Below are positions 2,865 through 26,295 of a DNA stretch of 37,466 nucleotides, piece by piece. The stretch lies in contig JAAXJD010000061.1 of NCBI GenBank assembly GCA_012270005.1, positions 1 to 37,466 on the forward strand. Direction: 5' to 3'. The notes beneath the pieces were generated by a model. The model made no database searches. It was not told the DNA's origin and saw only the letters and a program-made list of their open reading frames with translations. Positions within the stretch are counted from its first letter, which is position 1, and every line of letters starts with the position of its first letter. The DNA comes from Flavobacterium sp. (GTDB taxonomy: Bacteria; Bacteroidota; Bacteroidia; Flavobacteriales; Flavobacteriaceae). Both the position numbers and the translations under genes were made by a program.

Positions 2865-2889
2865 CTGTATACAAATGTTTTATTTGTGG

Positions 2890-2920
2890 CAAATATATAC
2901 CTACTATTTTAAAATACCAA
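2890..2920 (-). promoter_or_regulatory. Promoter of the serine recombinase
   Basis: On the minus strand TATATTTG (2897-2890) matches the Bacteroidota -7 box TAnnTTTG, and TTG (2920-2918) sits 20 bp upstream. The start codon at 2864 follows about 26 bp after the box. Between box and start lies the inverted repeat ACAAAT-5-ATTTGT (2871-2887), which could bind a regulator. Confidence 0.55.
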
Positions 2921-3060
2921 CTTCAACGGTAATGGTAGTAGCCTCTACCCCAAAAACGGCACTGCCGTAAACTTTTATAAGCATAAACTGGTTGTTATTG
3001 GCGGCGTGAAAGTACAAACAATAACCCAAAAACGCAATTTAGCCGCAGGCTTTGGCATAA
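2913..3060 (+). pseudogene. Possible 3' gene remnant at the edge of the integrated element
   Basis: A frame without a start codon opens after the TAA at 2910-2912 and reads as plausible protein (for example NFYKHKLVVIGGVKVQT and AAGFGIKRKF) up to about 3060. It then runs into a hairpin that belongs to a minus-strand terminator, and stays formally open to 3242. The codon choice looks coding until the hairpin and not after it. The simplest reading is the tail of a host or element gene that was cut when the recombinase-bearing element inserted. I do not recognise the family. The stretch 2865-3297 has no complete gene: it holds the recombinase promoter, this remnant and a small RNA gene. Confidence 0.35.
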
Positions 3061-3096
3061 AAAGAAAATTCCCGCTATCACTGTGCGGGAATTTTC
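3059..3096 (-). terminator. Rho-independent terminator of small RNA copy 1
   Basis: A perfect 12-bp stem (GAAAATTCCCGC at 3064-3075 with 3085-3096, 9-base loop) is followed on the minus strand by five Ts (3063-3059). On the plus strand the hairpin is followed by ACAAAACC, so termination is directed to the minus strand. Confidence 0.75.
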
Positions 3097-3173
3097 ACAA
3101 AACCAATCAAAAACCAATTATGAAAAAACTTTATTCCTTCTCTGTACGGAAACCTTTAATGTTTCCTTTTGTT
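3059..3173 (-). ncRNA. Putative small RNA gene, copy 1 of a two-copy family
   Basis: About 115 nt predicted from a -7 box at 3185-3178 to the U-tract at 3063-3059. A 33-base block (3094-3126) is identical to 4251-4283 in copy 2. In the RNA sense it holds two AUUGGUUUU repeats and the reverse complement of a CCAATTATGAAAA start-codon context. The 5' half contains a hairpin, GGAAAC-7-GUUUCC (3166-3148), that copy 2 does not share. The two copies have the same order: promoter, variable 5' part, identical block, terminator. Homology extends upstream to about 3237. The ends are inferred from signals. The opposite reading, a plus-strand leader with a short ORF at 3120, is less supported because the U-tract and promoter core are both on the minus strand. 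Confidence 0.55.
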
Positions 3174-3177
3174 GATA

Positions 3178-3219
3178 CAAATGTAGCACCGTTTGACTGC
3201 CGCATTTATAATTTTAGAC
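3178..3219 (-). promoter_or_regulatory. Promoter of small RNA copy 1
   Basis: The minus strand carries TACATTTG (3185-3178), matching TAnnTTTG, and the conserved element GTCTAAAATTA (3219-3209) upstream. Copy 2 has the same two sequences with exactly the same 23-bp gap, although the gap sequence differs. No TTG is seen at -33, so the conserved upstream element may take its place or bind a regulator. Confidence 0.5.
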
Positions 3220-3297
3220 GAGTACCGAAAGTGTGTCGGTAAACACCGTATAACGTACGATAACAAACTCCTTATCCGTGATATTATAGATAAACGG

Positions 3298-4131
3298 TTA
3301 CCCTATTTTAACCCCGGTCATGTTTAAGGATCCTCCCACCAGCTCATCGTTAAAAAACCGTATATCATCTTTGCTTTCCTGCAAGCCCAATGTATAAAGT
3401 AGCGGGTAGTAATGGTCTGGTGTAGGTATGGCAAGCTTTGCCGCAGCACCCAGATTATTGTAGGCTATTAAGTCGGCGTGGTTATGGTCGCCTATTTTTT
3501 GTTTAAAAACTTGGTTAAGCTCTACCGCCCAGTCAAAGCCATAATTGGGTTCGTTAAGCCTCTGCCAGTCTACCATCCTCAGGTTATGTATCATGTTTCC
3601 GCTGCCAATGATCAGTACTCCTTTTTGCCTTAATGATGCCAGCTGTTTTGCCAAATCGTAGTGATACTGAGGCGATTTGTTATAGTCAATGCTAAGTTGC
3701 AGCACCGGGATGTCTGCATCGGGGTACATGTGGCGTACCACCGTCCAAGTACCATGATCCAGCCCCCACTCGTGTTCATCAAGCCCTACCGGGGCAGACG
3801 TAATAATTTGAGATACTTCCTCAGCCAGCTGCGGACTTCCCGGAGCAGGGTACTGTACATTAAACAACTCTTGAGGAAACCCACCAAAATCATGTATTGT
3901 ACGCGGGTGCTCCATGGCGGTAACGTGCGTGCCATGTGTAAGCCAATGTGCAGATATAACCAGTACGGCAGTTGGCCTTGTTATTGCTTTACCAAGCTGC
4001 GCCCAGGTTTGGCTGAACTGATTGTCCTGAATGCCGTTCATGGGAGAGCCGTGGCCAATAAAAAGAACGGGCATTTTCTCTGACGTTGTTTTAAGATCGC
4101 TTGTAAAATTATTAAATGTATGTAGTGACAT
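3298..4131 (-). CDS. ygiD: 4,5-DOPA-type extradiol dioxygenase (YgiD family)
   Basis: A 277-residue class III (LigB-type) extradiol dioxygenase, expected to open catechol rings such as DOPA using a non-heme metal. Key pieces are visible: the FIGHGSPMNG motif with His27, ISAHW with His62, DFGGFP at 81-86, GLDHGTWTVVRHMYPDAD with His126, and IGSGNMIHNL in the C-terminal half. The length fits the family. The annotated ATG gives a 19-residue leader before MPVLFIGHG; a start at Met20 would match shorter homologues and cannot be excluded. The promoter region holds two perfect palindromes (4162-4197), so the gene is probably repressed by a dimeric regulator. It lies between the two small RNA copies on the same strand. 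The physiological substrate is unknown, since many bacteria carry this gene without a DOPA pathway. Confidence 0.9.
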   Translation of the reverse strand: MSLHTFNNFTSDLKTTSEKMPVLFIGHGSPMNGIQDNQFSQTWAQLGKAITRPTAVLVISAHWLTHGTHVTAMEHPRTIHDFGGFPQELFNVQYPAPGSPQLAEEVSQIITSAPVGLDEHEWGLDHGTWTVVRHMYPDADIPVLQLSIDYNKSPQYHYDLAKQLASLRQKGVLIIGSGNMIHNLRMVDWQRLNEPNYGFDWAVELNQVFKQKIGDHNHADLIAYNNLGAAAKLAIPTPDHYYPLLYTLGLQESKDDIRFFNDELVGGSLNMTGVKIG

Positions 4132-4161
4132 GAGTAATCAGATAAAATTTGTAGTTACAAT

Positions 4162-4197
4162 ATTTGTATATACAAATTTATAAAATATTTTATAAAT
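4162..4197. promoter_or_regulatory. Operator/promoter of the dioxygenase gene: two adjacent perfect palindromes
   Basis: ATTTGTATATACAAAT (4162-4177) is a perfect 16-bp palindrome. It overlaps the end of a perfect 22-bp A/T palindrome (4176-4197, half-site ATTTATAAAAT). The minus-strand -7 box TAAATTTG (4180-4173) lies where the two meet, so a dimer bound there would block the dioxygenase promoter. The distance to the ATG at 4131 is about 40 bp. This arrangement is typical of operators for small winged-helix repressors, but the regulator is not in the window. Confidence 0.55.
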
Positions 4198-4214
4198 AGC
4201 TTACTTACAGATCT

Positions 4215-4253
4215 AAAAAAGAAAAGCCCCGCTAGTTGGCTACGGGACTCTTC
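4215..4253 (-). terminator. Rho-independent terminator of small RNA copy 2
   Basis: The hairpin has arms 4221-4235 and 4240-4253 with loop TTGG and one bulge, with the core CCCG/CGGG plus two G:U wobbles on the minus strand. Six Ts (4220-4215) follow on that strand. Confidence 0.7.
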
Positions 4254-4333
4254 ACAAAACCAATCAAAAACCAATTATGAAAATACTTTACTTTATTATC
4301 CTGTGCATCGCATTGTAGTATACTGCTGATTAC
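4215..4333 (-). ncRNA. Putative small RNA gene, copy 2 of a two-copy family
   Basis: About 119 nt predicted between a -7 box at 4345-4338 and the U-tract at 4220-4215. It shares the 33-base identical block (4251-4283) with copy 1 and a looser match on both sides, while the 5' part (about 4284-4333) differs. The terminator stem has two positions that are A:C mismatches if read as plus-strand RNA but G:U wobbles on the minus strand, which argues for a minus-strand transcript. It lies in the 292-bp gap between the lactate dehydrogenase (upstream) and dioxygenase (downstream) genes, all on the same strand. On the plus strand a 13-codon frame (MKILYFIILCIAL, 4277-4318) overlaps the block; I treat it as chance. 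Confidence 0.55.
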
Positions 4334-4337
4334 AAAG

Positions 4338-4379
4338 CAAATGTACGCTGATTCACCGCCATCCCATTTAATTTTAGAC
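4338..4379 (-). promoter_or_regulatory. Promoter of small RNA copy 2
   Basis: TACATTTG (4345-4338) and GTCTAAAATTA (4379-4369) on the minus strand, with the same 23-bp spacing as in copy 1. The conserved spacing with an unconserved spacer is what a promoter would show. Confidence 0.5.
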
Positions 4380-4423
4380 TAGCGGCAAAGAGGTGTAGCC
4401 GAATTGCTTTACACAATCGATAA

Positions 4424-5419
4424 TTAAATCAAAATCATTTCATTAGCAGGTTCATTCCCGGTATAAAATCCCGTAATACTGTTTAGCGTTACTGCGGCAA
4501 TCTGGCTCAGTGCTTCATCGGTAAAAAACGCCTGGTGCGCTGTAACCAAAACATTCGGGAAACTCATTAAACGCTGTATGTTATCGTCGTCTATAATATT
4601 TTCAGACAAATCCCTGAAAAACAGCTTTTCTTCCTGTTCGTAAACATCTATACCCAGTGCGCCCACGTGTTTTTCCTTTAATGCCTCTATAATGTCTGTA
4701 GTACATATAAGCCCTCCCCTGCTGGTATTAATAATTACCACGCCTTTCTTCATTTTACGGATAGATTCCCCGTTAATTATGTAGTGGTTTTCTGGTGTAA
4801 GCGGGCAGTGCAGCGACAATACATCGGCGGTAGCCAAAACCTCCTCCAGTGGCAGGTAGTTTACCCCCGCTTGTTTTAAATCGGCATCTTCATAAATATC
4901 GTAAGCAATTACCTTGCAGCCAAACCCAAGCATTATTTTACAGAACGCCTTACCTATTTTACCCGTACCCACCACGCCTATGGTTTTACCGTGCAGATTA
5001 AATCCCAATAAACCGTTAAGCGAAAAATTCTGTTCGCGCACGCGGTTGTAAGCCTTGTGCGTTTTACGGTTAAGGGTAAGCAGCATAGCCACTGTGTGCT
5101 CTGCCACTGCCTCAGGCGAATATGCCGGTACCCTGCACACGCGAAGGCCTAATCTGCGCGCAGCTTCAAGGTCTACATTATTAAAACCGGCACAGCGCAG
5201 TGCAATTACTTTTACACCGCGCTCCGCAAGGGTTTGCAGTACAGGAGCGCCTAGTTTATCGTTTACAAATGCACAAACTGCATATGTATCCTCCACCACG
5301 TTTGCTATATGCGGCCCCAGGTGGGTTTCGTAATACTCTATCTCTATATTCTGGCTGTTATTAAATCTGTCGAAATACTGCCTGTCATAAGGCTTTGCAG
5401 AAAAAAGTGTAATTTTCAT
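4424..5419 (-). CDS. ldhA: D-lactate dehydrogenase (2-hydroxyacid dehydrogenase family)
   Basis: A 331-residue NAD-dependent dehydrogenase that should interconvert pyruvate and D-lactate in the cytoplasm, mainly to re-oxidise NADH when oxygen is short. The NAD-binding Rossmann motif GVVGTGKIGKAFC is at 148-160. The catalytic triad of the family is in place: Arg234 in NTSRGG, Glu263 after IDVYE, and His295 in VTAHQAF. The size and residue numbering match the LdhA type closely, including RCAGFNNVD at 75-83, which favours D-lactate dehydrogenase over glycerate or formate dehydrogenases of the same superfamily. A minus-strand -7 box TAAATTTG lies at 5452-5445, about 26 bp before the ATG. Small RNA copy 2 starts about 90 bp after its stop codon, on the same strand. 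Confidence 0.92.
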   Translation of the reverse strand: MKITLFSAKPYDRQYFDRFNNSQNIEIEYYETHLGPHIANVVEDTYAVCAFVNDKLGAPVLQTLAERGVKVIALRCAGFNNVDLEAARRLGLRVCRVPAYSPEAVAEHTVAMLLTLNRKTHKAYNRVREQNFSLNGLLGFNLHGKTIGVVGTGKIGKAFCKIMLGFGCKVIAYDIYEDADLKQAGVNYLPLEEVLATADVLSLHCPLTPENHYIINGESIRKMKKGVVIINTSRGGLICTTDIIEALKEKHVGALGIDVYEQEEKLFFRDLSENIIDDDNIQRLMSFPNVLVTAHQAFFTDEALSQIAAVTLNSITGFYTGNEPANEMILI

Positions 5420-21748: not shown

Positions 21749-21769
21749 ATCTACTTAAACCAACCCATT

Positions 21770-22684
21770 ATGAAAAAATTCTGTTTATTATTAGCAATCG
21801 TACTTCTATCAGCAAGTAAAAGTTTTGCATGCCTAAACGGAGAGCATTACATACTAAAAAATGGCTATCCACTTTTTGAAGATTATGACGGAGAGATACC
21901 TGAACCTCATAATTTTTATGTTTTTAGTTTTGAGAAAAATATTAAAGAGCTTGACAGTCTTTACAAAAAAACAAAAGATGTAGCTTACTTATCTGATAAA
22001 GGATTAATTCTTATACTTCAAAAAAAGTATAAGGACGCATTAGCTTTATATCAGTTCATTGAAAAAGCAGCGCCAGGAAGATATTCAACGGCCGCAAACA
22101 TGGGTACATTATATGAACTTATGGGTGATAACGAAAAAGCACTTTACTGGATAAGAAAGTCGGTAGAAATAAACCCAAAGTCACATGAAGAATCGGAGTG
22201 GTTACATGTAAAAATACTTGAAGCTAAGCTAAAGGGTAAATCCGCTTACAACGGCGCTTTTTTACTAGGTACTGACTTTGGAGCTCAAGCAATGCCGATA
22301 ACAAAACTAACTACTACAGAGCTTAGAAGACTTGAAAAATCATTGTTCTTTCAACTAACCGAACGTATGTCGTTTATAAAACCGAAAGACCCAATCGTAG
22401 CAACACTACTTTTTGAACTTGCTAACATAAAATTACTTTTAAAGAAAAATGCGCAGGCAAAAGAAATTTACGCAAAAGCATTAGAATACGGATACGATTC
22501 AAAAATTGTAGATGAACGTATTATTCAGGCTAACAAGCCCGTTTCTCCTGTCAAGCAGAAGAAAAAAATAATATCAAAAGAAGACAAATCATCATCGTCA
22601 ATTGTACCGGCAGTAGTAGGTGCTACTACAGCAGTAATTATACTTGCAGCTGCCCGCCGACGTAGAGGGAATAAAGAAAAATAG
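21770..22684 (+). CDS. Exported TPR protein with C-terminal membrane anchor
   Basis: A 304-residue protein with signal peptide (KKFCLLLAIVLLSASKSFA). About four tetratricopeptide-like helix pairs follow (for example YKDALALYQFIEKAAPGRYSTAANMG and NEKALYWIRKSVEIN). After a Lys-rich linker the end is a single hydrophobic segment, VVGATTAVIILAAA, with an RRRR tail. The likely placement is periplasmic repeats anchored at the C-terminus. The ATG at 21770 is preferred over the in-frame ATG at 21719 because the latter lies upstream of the uvrA terminator and would precede the signal peptide by 17 residues. The start context ATTATGAAAAAA is the reverse complement of a block in the small RNAs. Partners and function are unknown. 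Confidence 0.75.
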   Translation: MKKFCLLLAIVLLSASKSFACLNGEHYILKNGYPLFEDYDGEIPEPHNFYVFSFEKNIKELDSLYKKTKDVAYLSDKGLILILQKKYKDALALYQFIEKAAPGRYSTAANMGTLYELMGDNEKALYWIRKSVEINPKSHEESEWLHVKILEAKLKGKSAYNGAFLLGTDFGAQAMPITKLTTTELRRLEKSLFFQLTERMSFIKPKDPIVATLLFELANIKLLLKKNAQAKEIYAKALEYGYDSKIVDERIIQANKPVSPVKQKKKIISKEDKSSSSIVPAVVGATTAVIILAAARRRRGNKEK

Positions 22685-24968: not shown

Positions 24969-26216
24969 ATGAAACAAAAACTACGCTTAGGTAAAATGGT
25001 CATTGTTGCAGCAATGGCAAGTTTTATGTACGGAGCTAATGCCTACGGTCAAACGTACACTTGGTCGGGTTCTGCCAGCAACCAGTTTTACAACACTTCT
25101 AACTGGACCAGTTCAGACGGCCCCGTGGTGTTTGACAACTCTGCTTTTAAAATTGTGCGTACAAACACTCAGGGTCAATCACCTGTAATAGGTCAATGGA
25201 TAGACTGGCAGCCGGGCATTTATGACAACCTGGGAGGCAACCTTACGCTGAATGCTGATTTTCAGGTGTACTTTAACGACTTTTTAAACGGCAATGTTAC
25301 CATTAACAGCGGTGCTTCGTTCATTTGCCGTAATATTATCCGCGTGGGCCGCGAAGGCAGCGGAACGGTAAACATTAACGGTGGCACCATGCGCAGCCTG
25401 CACGAAACCAACTGGCAGGGAATTTTTATAGGCGTATTGCAAAATGGAAACGGAACCGTTAACGTTAACGATGGCGGACTTATAAGTGGCGGCTATCAGG
25501 TAGAGGTGGGTACCCGCGATTTTTATCCTACAGGTGTACTTAACGTAAATGCAGGTGGTACATCTGAAGCATACTGGAACACCGTTATAGGGCCAAACGG
25601 AACTATTAATGTAAACGGTGGTACGGTTAATACCGGGCAAGGGTTCATTGTAGGTGATTTATATCTTGATACTCCTGCAAACACGGGTACATTAGGCACT
25701 GTAGTAGGGCAAATGAACCTTAACGAAGGTACGGTAACTGTAAACCACCTTGACCTTGCCAGCCCTAACTTAGCAATACATGCAAACGGTAAAATTGTTA
25801 TTGATAACGGTACACTTAGGGTAAGGCGCACCGGGGTAGACTTTACAGCTACCATTAACGGCTACATTGCCACAGGGCAAATAGCACCTGTAGCGGGCAA
25901 AGAACTACAAGTTGCTTATGACGGAACCGAGTTTACTACCGTAGTGGCTACAGCCATAAACAACACACAGACAGCTAATAAAGCGCAGATTGTAGCGTTC
26001 CCTAACCCCGCTTCAGACAAGCTGTTCTTTAAGGGCGTAGATAACAATAATATCAGTATAATGATTACTGATGTTACCGGTAAAGTTGTGCTAAATGCAA
26101 ACGGAATTTCTAATATAAGCGCCGGTATTGATATTTCAGCGCTAACAAACGGTGTTTATATAGCTAAAGTTGCCAACGGTAACGCGGTGCAAAACATCAA
26201 ATTCATTAAAAAGTAA
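24969..26216 (+). CDS. Secreted beta-helix-like protein with type IX secretion sorting domain
   Basis: A 415-residue protein with a signal peptide (about 1-28) and a long repetitive beta region. Repeats such as GNLTLN, GNVTINSG, GTVNINGGTM, GTVNVNDGGL, GVLNVNAGG and GTINVNGGTV recur about every 25-35 residues, like the strand-turn units of autotransporter passengers or a right-handed beta-helix. The last 80 residues (VAFPNPASDKLFF to VQNIKFIKK) are a type A T9SS C-terminal sorting domain, so the protein should cross the outer membrane and be released or anchored on the surface. It has its own strong promoter and terminator, suggesting independent, high expression. Adhesion or matrix function is likely but not shown. 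Confidence 0.85.
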   Translation: MKQKLRLGKMVIVAAMASFMYGANAYGQTYTWSGSASNQFYNTSNWTSSDGPVVFDNSAFKIVRTNTQGQSPVIGQWIDWQPGIYDNLGGNLTLNADFQVYFNDFLNGNVTINSGASFICRNIIRVGREGSGTVNINGGTMRSLHETNWQGIFIGVLQNGNGTVNVNDGGLISGGYQVEVGTRDFYPTGVLNVNAGGTSEAYWNTVIGPNGTINVNGGTVNTGQGFIVGDLYLDTPANTGTLGTVVGQMNLNEGTVTVNHLDLASPNLAIHANGKIVIDNGTLRVRRTGVDFTATINGYIATGQIAPVAGKELQVAYDGTEFTTVVATAINNTQTANKAQIVAFPNPASDKLFFKGVDNNNISIMITDVTGKVVLNANGISNISAGIDISALTNGVYIAKVANGNAVQNIKFIKK

Positions 26217-26263
26217 TTAGAATCAGTATCATAGTTTTTCATTACATTTGGGTTAGTTCAATT

Positions 26264-26295
26264 AAAAAAGCCACGCAATGCGTGGCTTTTTCTTG
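26264..26295. terminator. Bidirectional terminator between the T9SS cargo gene and the efflux operon
   Basis: GCCACG (26270-26275), loop CAATG, CGTGGC (26281-26286), flanked by six As on the left and five Ts on the right, so a T-run follows the hairpin on both strands. It serves the genes ending at 26216 (plus) and 26332 (minus). Confidence 0.85.

Follow-up and report, generated by a model that had tools for sequence, protein, structure and literature searches.

The window analyzed here, comprising bases 1-37466 of contig C158 (37,466 nucleotides) in a Flavobacterium sp. assembly of 3.57 Mb (227 contigs, 93% complete), carries two paralogous minus-strand elements, at 3059-3237 (copy 1) and 4215-4396 (copy 2), and the question raised by this locus is whether they are small RNA (sRNA) genes and, if so, what such RNAs may act upon. 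The two copies flank a LigB-type dioxygenase gene (3298-4131), and copy 2 is positioned after a D-2-hydroxyacid dehydrogenase gene (4424-5419). An earlier note on this DNA had described them as related non-coding repeats, which was borne out by an ungapped direct repeat of 75 nt with 84% identity (3059-3133 and 4216-4290), and by a BLAST search of the own genome with copy 2 as query, which retrieved copy 1 at an E value of 1.3e-16; their resemblance is therefore not due to chance. In keeping with two copies, TAATTTTAGACGAG/TAATTTTAGACTAG were found 1160 bp apart. Copy 1 is adjoined by a gene for a large serine recombinase (1086-2864) with Resolvase, Recombinase and Zn ribbon domains.

On the minus strand, both elements are arranged in the same order, namely, a GTCTAAA box, 27 bp, a -7 box (TACATTTG), a variable 5' part, a 33-base block and a terminator. 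In copy 1, the upstream box lies at 3213-3219 and the -7 box at 3178-3185, followed by the predicted sRNA gene at 3059-3177 (5' end of the transcript near 3177), in which the constant block occupies 3094-3126, with a start-codon complement at 3120-3122, and the terminator hairpin occupies 3064-3096, with its T-run at 3059-3063. The corresponding positions in copy 2 are 4373-4379 (upstream box), 4338-4345 (-7 box), 4216-4334 (predicted sRNA gene), 4251-4283 (block, with the start-codon complement at 4277-4279), 4221-4253 (terminator hairpin) and 4215-4220 (T-run). The extents of both copies were taken from the match of the R1 covariance model, which was built from the copies themselves. It is thus confirmed, as previously claimed, that the block is identical in the two copies and that the spacing between the two boxes is conserved, at 27 bp in each as measured here; so is the observation that the changes in the hairpin of copy 2 pair as G:U solely in minus-strand RNA. 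The two terminators were predicted to fold at -18.2 and -18.8 kcal/mol, and the fold z-score of the whole RNA was -3.57 for copy 1 and only -1.18 for copy 2.

The earlier note had recognized two members of this family and had suggested searching for the block in the own genome. A search with a 22-base core, allowing up to two mismatches, matched copies 1 and 2 alone, and no gene; BLAST with copy 2 retrieved further loci on contigs C51 (E 4.1e-7), C96 at 3569 (E 7.6e-7), C211 (E 1.4e-6) and C96 at 82 (E 3.9e-4), extending the family to six. In all six copies the upstream box, which is either GTCTAAA or ATCTAAA, lies 27 or 28 bp from a -7 box that is TACATTTG throughout except for the variant TAGATTTG in the second copy of C96 (C96b), and all have a core consisting of TTTCATA, 0-1 base and ATTGG..GATTGGTTTT, followed by a terminator-like hairpin with a T-run (predicted at -13.9 to -21.1 kcal/mol). 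The predicted RNAs are about 115-128 nt long, and the z-scores of their whole-length folds range between -1.2 (copy 2) and -3.9. On the evidence of these sequences, the own genome is host to a family of at least six putative sRNA genes. The four additional copies, by sharing the spacing, block and terminator, uphold the original description of RNAs of about 115 nt with a constant 3' half; the variability ascribed to the 5' half holds in part, as the first copy of C96 (C96a), C96b and C211 have a common 5' part and the 5' parts otherwise differ. A conserved 5' stem was also considered and found unsupported, the 5' folds varying from copy to copy.

As the earlier note had proposed, the six copies were used to construct a covariance model, which retrieved the same six at E values below 1e-15, the next match in the own genome being at least 0.09, which documents the gap and is not independent proof, the model having been built from its own matches. 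The promoter boxes were also examined on their own. In 1.13 Mb of the own genome, a sample that includes all six copies by choice, the box pair at a spacing of 26-28 bp gave seven matches, all at the six copies (one being a duplicate at the overlapping end of contig C87), against one match for the reversed-box control. A spacing of 28-29, at which three family copies escape detection, gave 10 matches against five in the control, and four of the 10 belonged to the family, including the contig-end duplicate. The end of C87 and the start of C96 both carry the beginning of one sRNA copy, and it is therefore probable that these contigs are overlapping or adjacent parts of the genome.

By ORF calls, a same-strand gene precedes copies 1, 2 and C51, whereas C211 and C96b come after an opposite-strand ORF, and C96a lies at the contig start. 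The placement of each copy after a minus-strand gene, which had been claimed from the window, is thus true of copies 1 and 2 and fails for two of the six as a rule for the whole family (C211 and C96b). Since an opposite-strand ORF lies before them, neither C211 nor C96b is a 3' UTR of the preceding gene. It is likely that all six copies have promoters of their own, and the shared upstream box at 27-28 bp probably points to one common activator. Overall, we are highly confident that the elements are real small RNA genes.

The family does not correspond to a named RNA family, in agreement with the earlier note: at the gathering threshold, Rfam 15 produced no match in the window, nor in nine further loci (L016-L019, L073, L079, L080, L085 and L100), and a relaxed scan over 2870-4430 gave a best match of E 1.3. 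RteR (RF04181), a short Bacteroides sRNA (PMC7366714), was rejected as a chance-level match, scoring 21.4 bits on copy 1 (E 2.3) against a gathering score of 72. No description of the family was found in the open-access literature searched.

Copies of the family were found in no other species among the genomes searched. With the R1 model at E 1e-6 and stricter filters, one of 398 genus genomes was positive, and this was the own genome. The nearest of the 398 is only about 71% identical in DNA at the dioxygenase/dehydrogenase locus, and restriction to a lineage is therefore indistinguishable from a lack of close relatives in this set. Two scans of a set of genome contigs, which may exclude the own genome or a near relative, returned neither the exact block nor variants of it, and a plasmid search returned one partial match covering 5% of the query. 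In viral contigs, the doubled ATTGGTTTT..GATTGGTTTT matched 15 stretches, with no family-like member in the flanks seen (about 90 bases before and 60 after); two of them (L106 and L115) were, by eye, gene starts on the opposite strand. A pattern search allowing up to two mismatches in 397 genomes of the bacterial family matched eight, including the own, and by eye the seven other loci lacked the family architecture. BLAST against 61 genus genomes matched four other genomes, with E values between 2e-4 and 8e-4; by eye, L011-L013 were ORF starts and the fourth match, L014, was not. Lastly, R1 at the permissive E value of 0.02 had matches in 107 of 249 genus genomes, and the 29 loci and 16 stretches inspected contained no full family member; they were other sRNA-like elements, 3' UTRs, gene starts and terminator-bearing stretches.

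What the RNAs may act upon is suggested by the block, which is U/G-rich and contains CAT. Its complement, AAAACCAATCAAAACCAATT-ATG-AAAAAA-CTTTAC, is gene-start-like and, written as AAAACCAATCAAAAACCAATT-ATG-AAAAAA-CTTTA, resembles a start encoding MKKLY; it reads in the style of the start regions of exported-protein and lipoprotein genes, with their MKKLYF-type signal peptides. When the 19-mer AACCAATTATGAAAAAACT of this complement was searched in the own genome with up to three mismatches, 21 matches were obtained against four for the reversed control; three were family copies, one was a divergent sister, and 17 lay elsewhere. By eye, 12 of these 17 were start codons, the ORFs that they open having N-termini of the signal-peptide or lipoprotein type, among them an M43 metalloprotease, a GH5 glycosidase, an outer-membrane beta-barrel protein and a TPR protein of the window, and the remaining five were at no gene start. 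The candidate target in the window, AACCCATT-ATG-AAAAAATT (21762-21780, plus strand), opens the ORF at 21770-22684, which encodes a signal-peptide protein with a Pfam TPR match; it has two mismatches to the block complement and a predicted duplex energy of -20.6 kcal/mol.

The same style of gene start was also sought across the genus. The pattern TTTTCATAN(0-12)ATTGGTTTT was found in 217 of 398 genus genomes; for the own genome, the count was 12, a figure that includes family copies, and that of the reversed control was 0. At 30 genus loci with AAAACCAAT..TATGAAAA, one per genome and the own genome not among them, an ORF 60 aa long or longer opened at the ATG of the pattern in 21; under a simple hydrophobicity rule 18 of these were signal-peptide-like, and none was followed by a terminator. 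These loci indicate what the block mirrors and are not proof of pairing. It is also to be noted that ATGAAAA alone favors gene starts, and that neither the AACCAATTATGAAAAAACT counts nor the 30-locus counts separate the contribution of the upstream part.

The upstream part was addressed in an unbiased sample of the own genome, namely the first 20 kb of each contig numbered divisibly by 5 (45 stretches, 501 kb, 438 ORFs, 124 of them signal-peptide-like). AACCAA, the complement of the doubled UUGGUU of the block, was present in the 30 nt leading up to the start codon of 15 of the 124 signal-peptide ORFs, where 200 permutations gave a mean of 2.6 and never more than 8; for the 314 other ORFs the count was 16 (mean 6.1, maximum 14). 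Among upstream 6-mers seen at least four times before signal-peptide ORFs it ranked second of 188, after TTTGTA, which by our reading resembles the -7 promoter box; in the other ORF class it ranked 44th of 592. CCAAT and CCAATT were not significantly enriched in the unbiased sample, nor was an in-register match directly upstream of ATG more frequent there than for shuffled blocks. On contigs chosen partly through matches, two of many p values of the in-register test fell below 0.05 (0.03 and 0.04); beyond ATGAAA, the in-register agreement of the block was thus scarcely better than that of its shuffled versions. In a partly biased sample of 367 start regions, RNAduplex energies of -18 kcal/mol or lower were reached in 30 with the copy 1 block and in 37 with the copy 2 block, whereas the best of 20 shuffles reached 16 and 31, respectively, and coding stretches gave 14 and 19; the consensus block tied with its best shuffle at this cut-off, and the copy 2 block beat all shuffles at -18, although not at -15, -20 or -22. 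In the predicted folds, about half of the block is unpaired (0.46-0.58). The complementarity is therefore to the style of start regions, and individual targets are to be regarded as candidates.

Together, these observations lead us to favor, with reasonable though far from full confidence, the interpretation that the RNAs act in trans, covering start codons and repressing genes of exported proteins. Each sRNA, in response to some inducing signal, would be transcribed from its own promoter, made of the -7 box and the upstream box 27-28 bp away, into an RNA consisting of a 5' part that differs among most copies, the U/G-rich constant block and the terminator; the block would then base-pair across the start codon of several exported-protein mRNAs, and the pairing would block translation initiation. 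An RRM-1 RNA-binding protein is a possible partner: the own genome encodes one RRM_1 protein (1e-21), and, at 93% completeness, gave no match to Hfq.

This RRM_1 protein also lends some appeal to a different division of labor, in which the constant block is a platform for a protein, RRM-1 or other, and the variable 5' part is a target seed specific to each copy. A U/G-rich sequence may be suitable for binding by an RRM protein, the 5' parts do differ among most copies, and a TATCAGAATC..CCTGACACAGA-like motif is common to the 5' parts of three. However, a binding site need not hold CAT between a U-run and the complement of CTTTAC, a layout that fits gene starts, and we consider a protein platform unlikely, if still the strongest competitor of start-codon pairing. 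That the start-like plus-strand reading of the block (ATG AAA...) is itself the functional or ancestral one, i.e., that the block is a relic of an inverted gene-start fragment or of a short ORF for a leader or hydrophobic peptide, the minus-strand signals being incidental, is very improbable: the ORFs are of unequal lengths (40 codons in copy 1, 13 in copy 2 and 97 opposite C96b), and the six copies preserve both the spacing of the minus-strand promoter boxes and the terminator hairpins.

An ordinary repeat or a mobile terminator cassette, having no trans-acting function, would account for the multiple copies, for the serine recombinase gene some 200 bp from copy 1, and for the location of C96a at a contig break. 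Nevertheless, outside the promoter, block and terminator the copies have diverged, save for the 5' part of three, and are therefore not products of recent transposition; moreover, among 99 terminators predicted in 420 kb by a crude finder, which missed copy 2, six had TTGGTTT upstream, and five of these six were family copies. The cassette was accordingly judged to have a small chance of being correct. The trans-acting start-codon reading remains the preferred one, and it is most likely that the family is new and its mode of action of a known kind.

The closest known counterpart is FopS, a family of 14 paralogous sRNAs of Bacteroides thetaiotaomicron that binds near start codons, its predicted targets being enriched in mRNAs of SusC-like outer-membrane transporters (PMC11697453). 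The likeness lies in several paralogous sRNA genes within one Bacteroidota genome, in a shared seed joined to a Rho-independent terminator, and in an RRM-1 protein in the same cell, which for FopS is RbpB (PMC11697453) and here is the RRM_1 protein encoded by the own genome. FopS differs in having 14 copies as opposed to the six found here, a seed in an unpaired 5' stretch and canonical promoters, whereas the present block is internal, just before the terminator and 0.46-0.58 unpaired, and the upstream box is GTCTAAA (PMC11697453). As for start-codon pairing of the FopS type, the complementarity speaks in its favor, and the in-register test was not significant in the unbiased sample. There was no FopS match in the Rfam scans (the window, the relaxed scan of 2870-4430 and the nine further loci), a negative that counts only if the library scanned includes the deposited FopS model. 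By analogy, the anatomy may work like that of FopS and GibS; since FopS was compared by its description, and since the block here is internal rather than 5', membership is not claimed.

GibS likewise has an extended AU-rich seed over the translation start regions of its targets, and it differs in that only one gene encodes it, that its seeds, R1 and R2, are 5' ones and that its promoter is of the PM2 type with -10/-30 boxes (PMC7366714). The presence of RRM_1 with Hfq unmatched suggests the same kind of setting as that of FopS and GibS in Bacteroides (PMC11697453, PMC7366714). Rfp18 of Flavobacterium psychrophilum has metalloproteases among its predicted targets, which recalls the M43 metalloprotease among the present candidates, and its mutant had lower mRNA levels of two metalloproteases; compared by description, it differs in being strongly structured and in pairing by its third stem-loop (PMC9723704).

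Several further elements were noted. The divergent sister is an sRNA-like element with TGAGGTTTGTTAATAATTGGTTGGTTGGTTTGTTAAGTCCCG and a terminator (L073, own contig C53:8410-8526; R1 E 0.3), and it is conserved between two species, its counterpart (L144, G429:C3) sharing an identical stretch of 44 columns that includes ATTGGTTGGTTGGTTTG. Four loci in three genomes (L101, L146, L147 and L150 in G420, G524 and G603) have, by eye, an anti-start stretch between a stop codon and a terminator; these apparent 3' UTRs carry the block-like TTTTTCATAAT, and the first three also TTGGTTTT. In the window, at about 26212-26270 on the plus strand, TTTTTCATTACATTTGGGTTAGTT follows ORF 24969-26216 and precedes a terminator, resembling a weaker anti-start-like 3' UTR. 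A separate sRNA-like family of the genus, marked by AATAAACTGGTTATTTATTA..GGTTTTGGTTAG and a terminator, with TTAAC repeats before a -7 box by eye, was noted as 13 copies in 10 loci (L079, L080, L081, L082, L085, L087, L088, L091, L094 and L100), with pairs 185-303 bp apart in three; the four Rfam-scanned loci L079, L080, L085 and L100 had no match.

A broader and more tentative proposal, which we consider possible yet doubtful, is that the RNA recognizes exported-protein mRNAs as a class, the block mirroring a grammar of AACCAA, ATG, AAA AAA and CTT TAC, and that the similar anti-start 3' UTRs of relatives belong to a wider control layer. Against such a layer, upstream of the 99 terminators of the own genome TTTTCAT was as frequent as ATGAAAA, five each. 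Were the class-wide recognition true, one RNA family could damp much of the envelope and secretome, and the wider layer would represent control in bacteria largely without Shine-Dalgarno sites.

Start-codon-covering sRNAs of Bacteroidota were met, in the literature consulted, in Bacteroides only. If the trans-acting reading is correct, the present family would be a second case of multicopy RNAs directed at start codons, now in the flavobacterial branch, and would suggest that the covering of start codons is common for sRNAs where Shine-Dalgarno pairing is missing; a concrete block, six copies and a set of candidate targets are offered by the present analysis.
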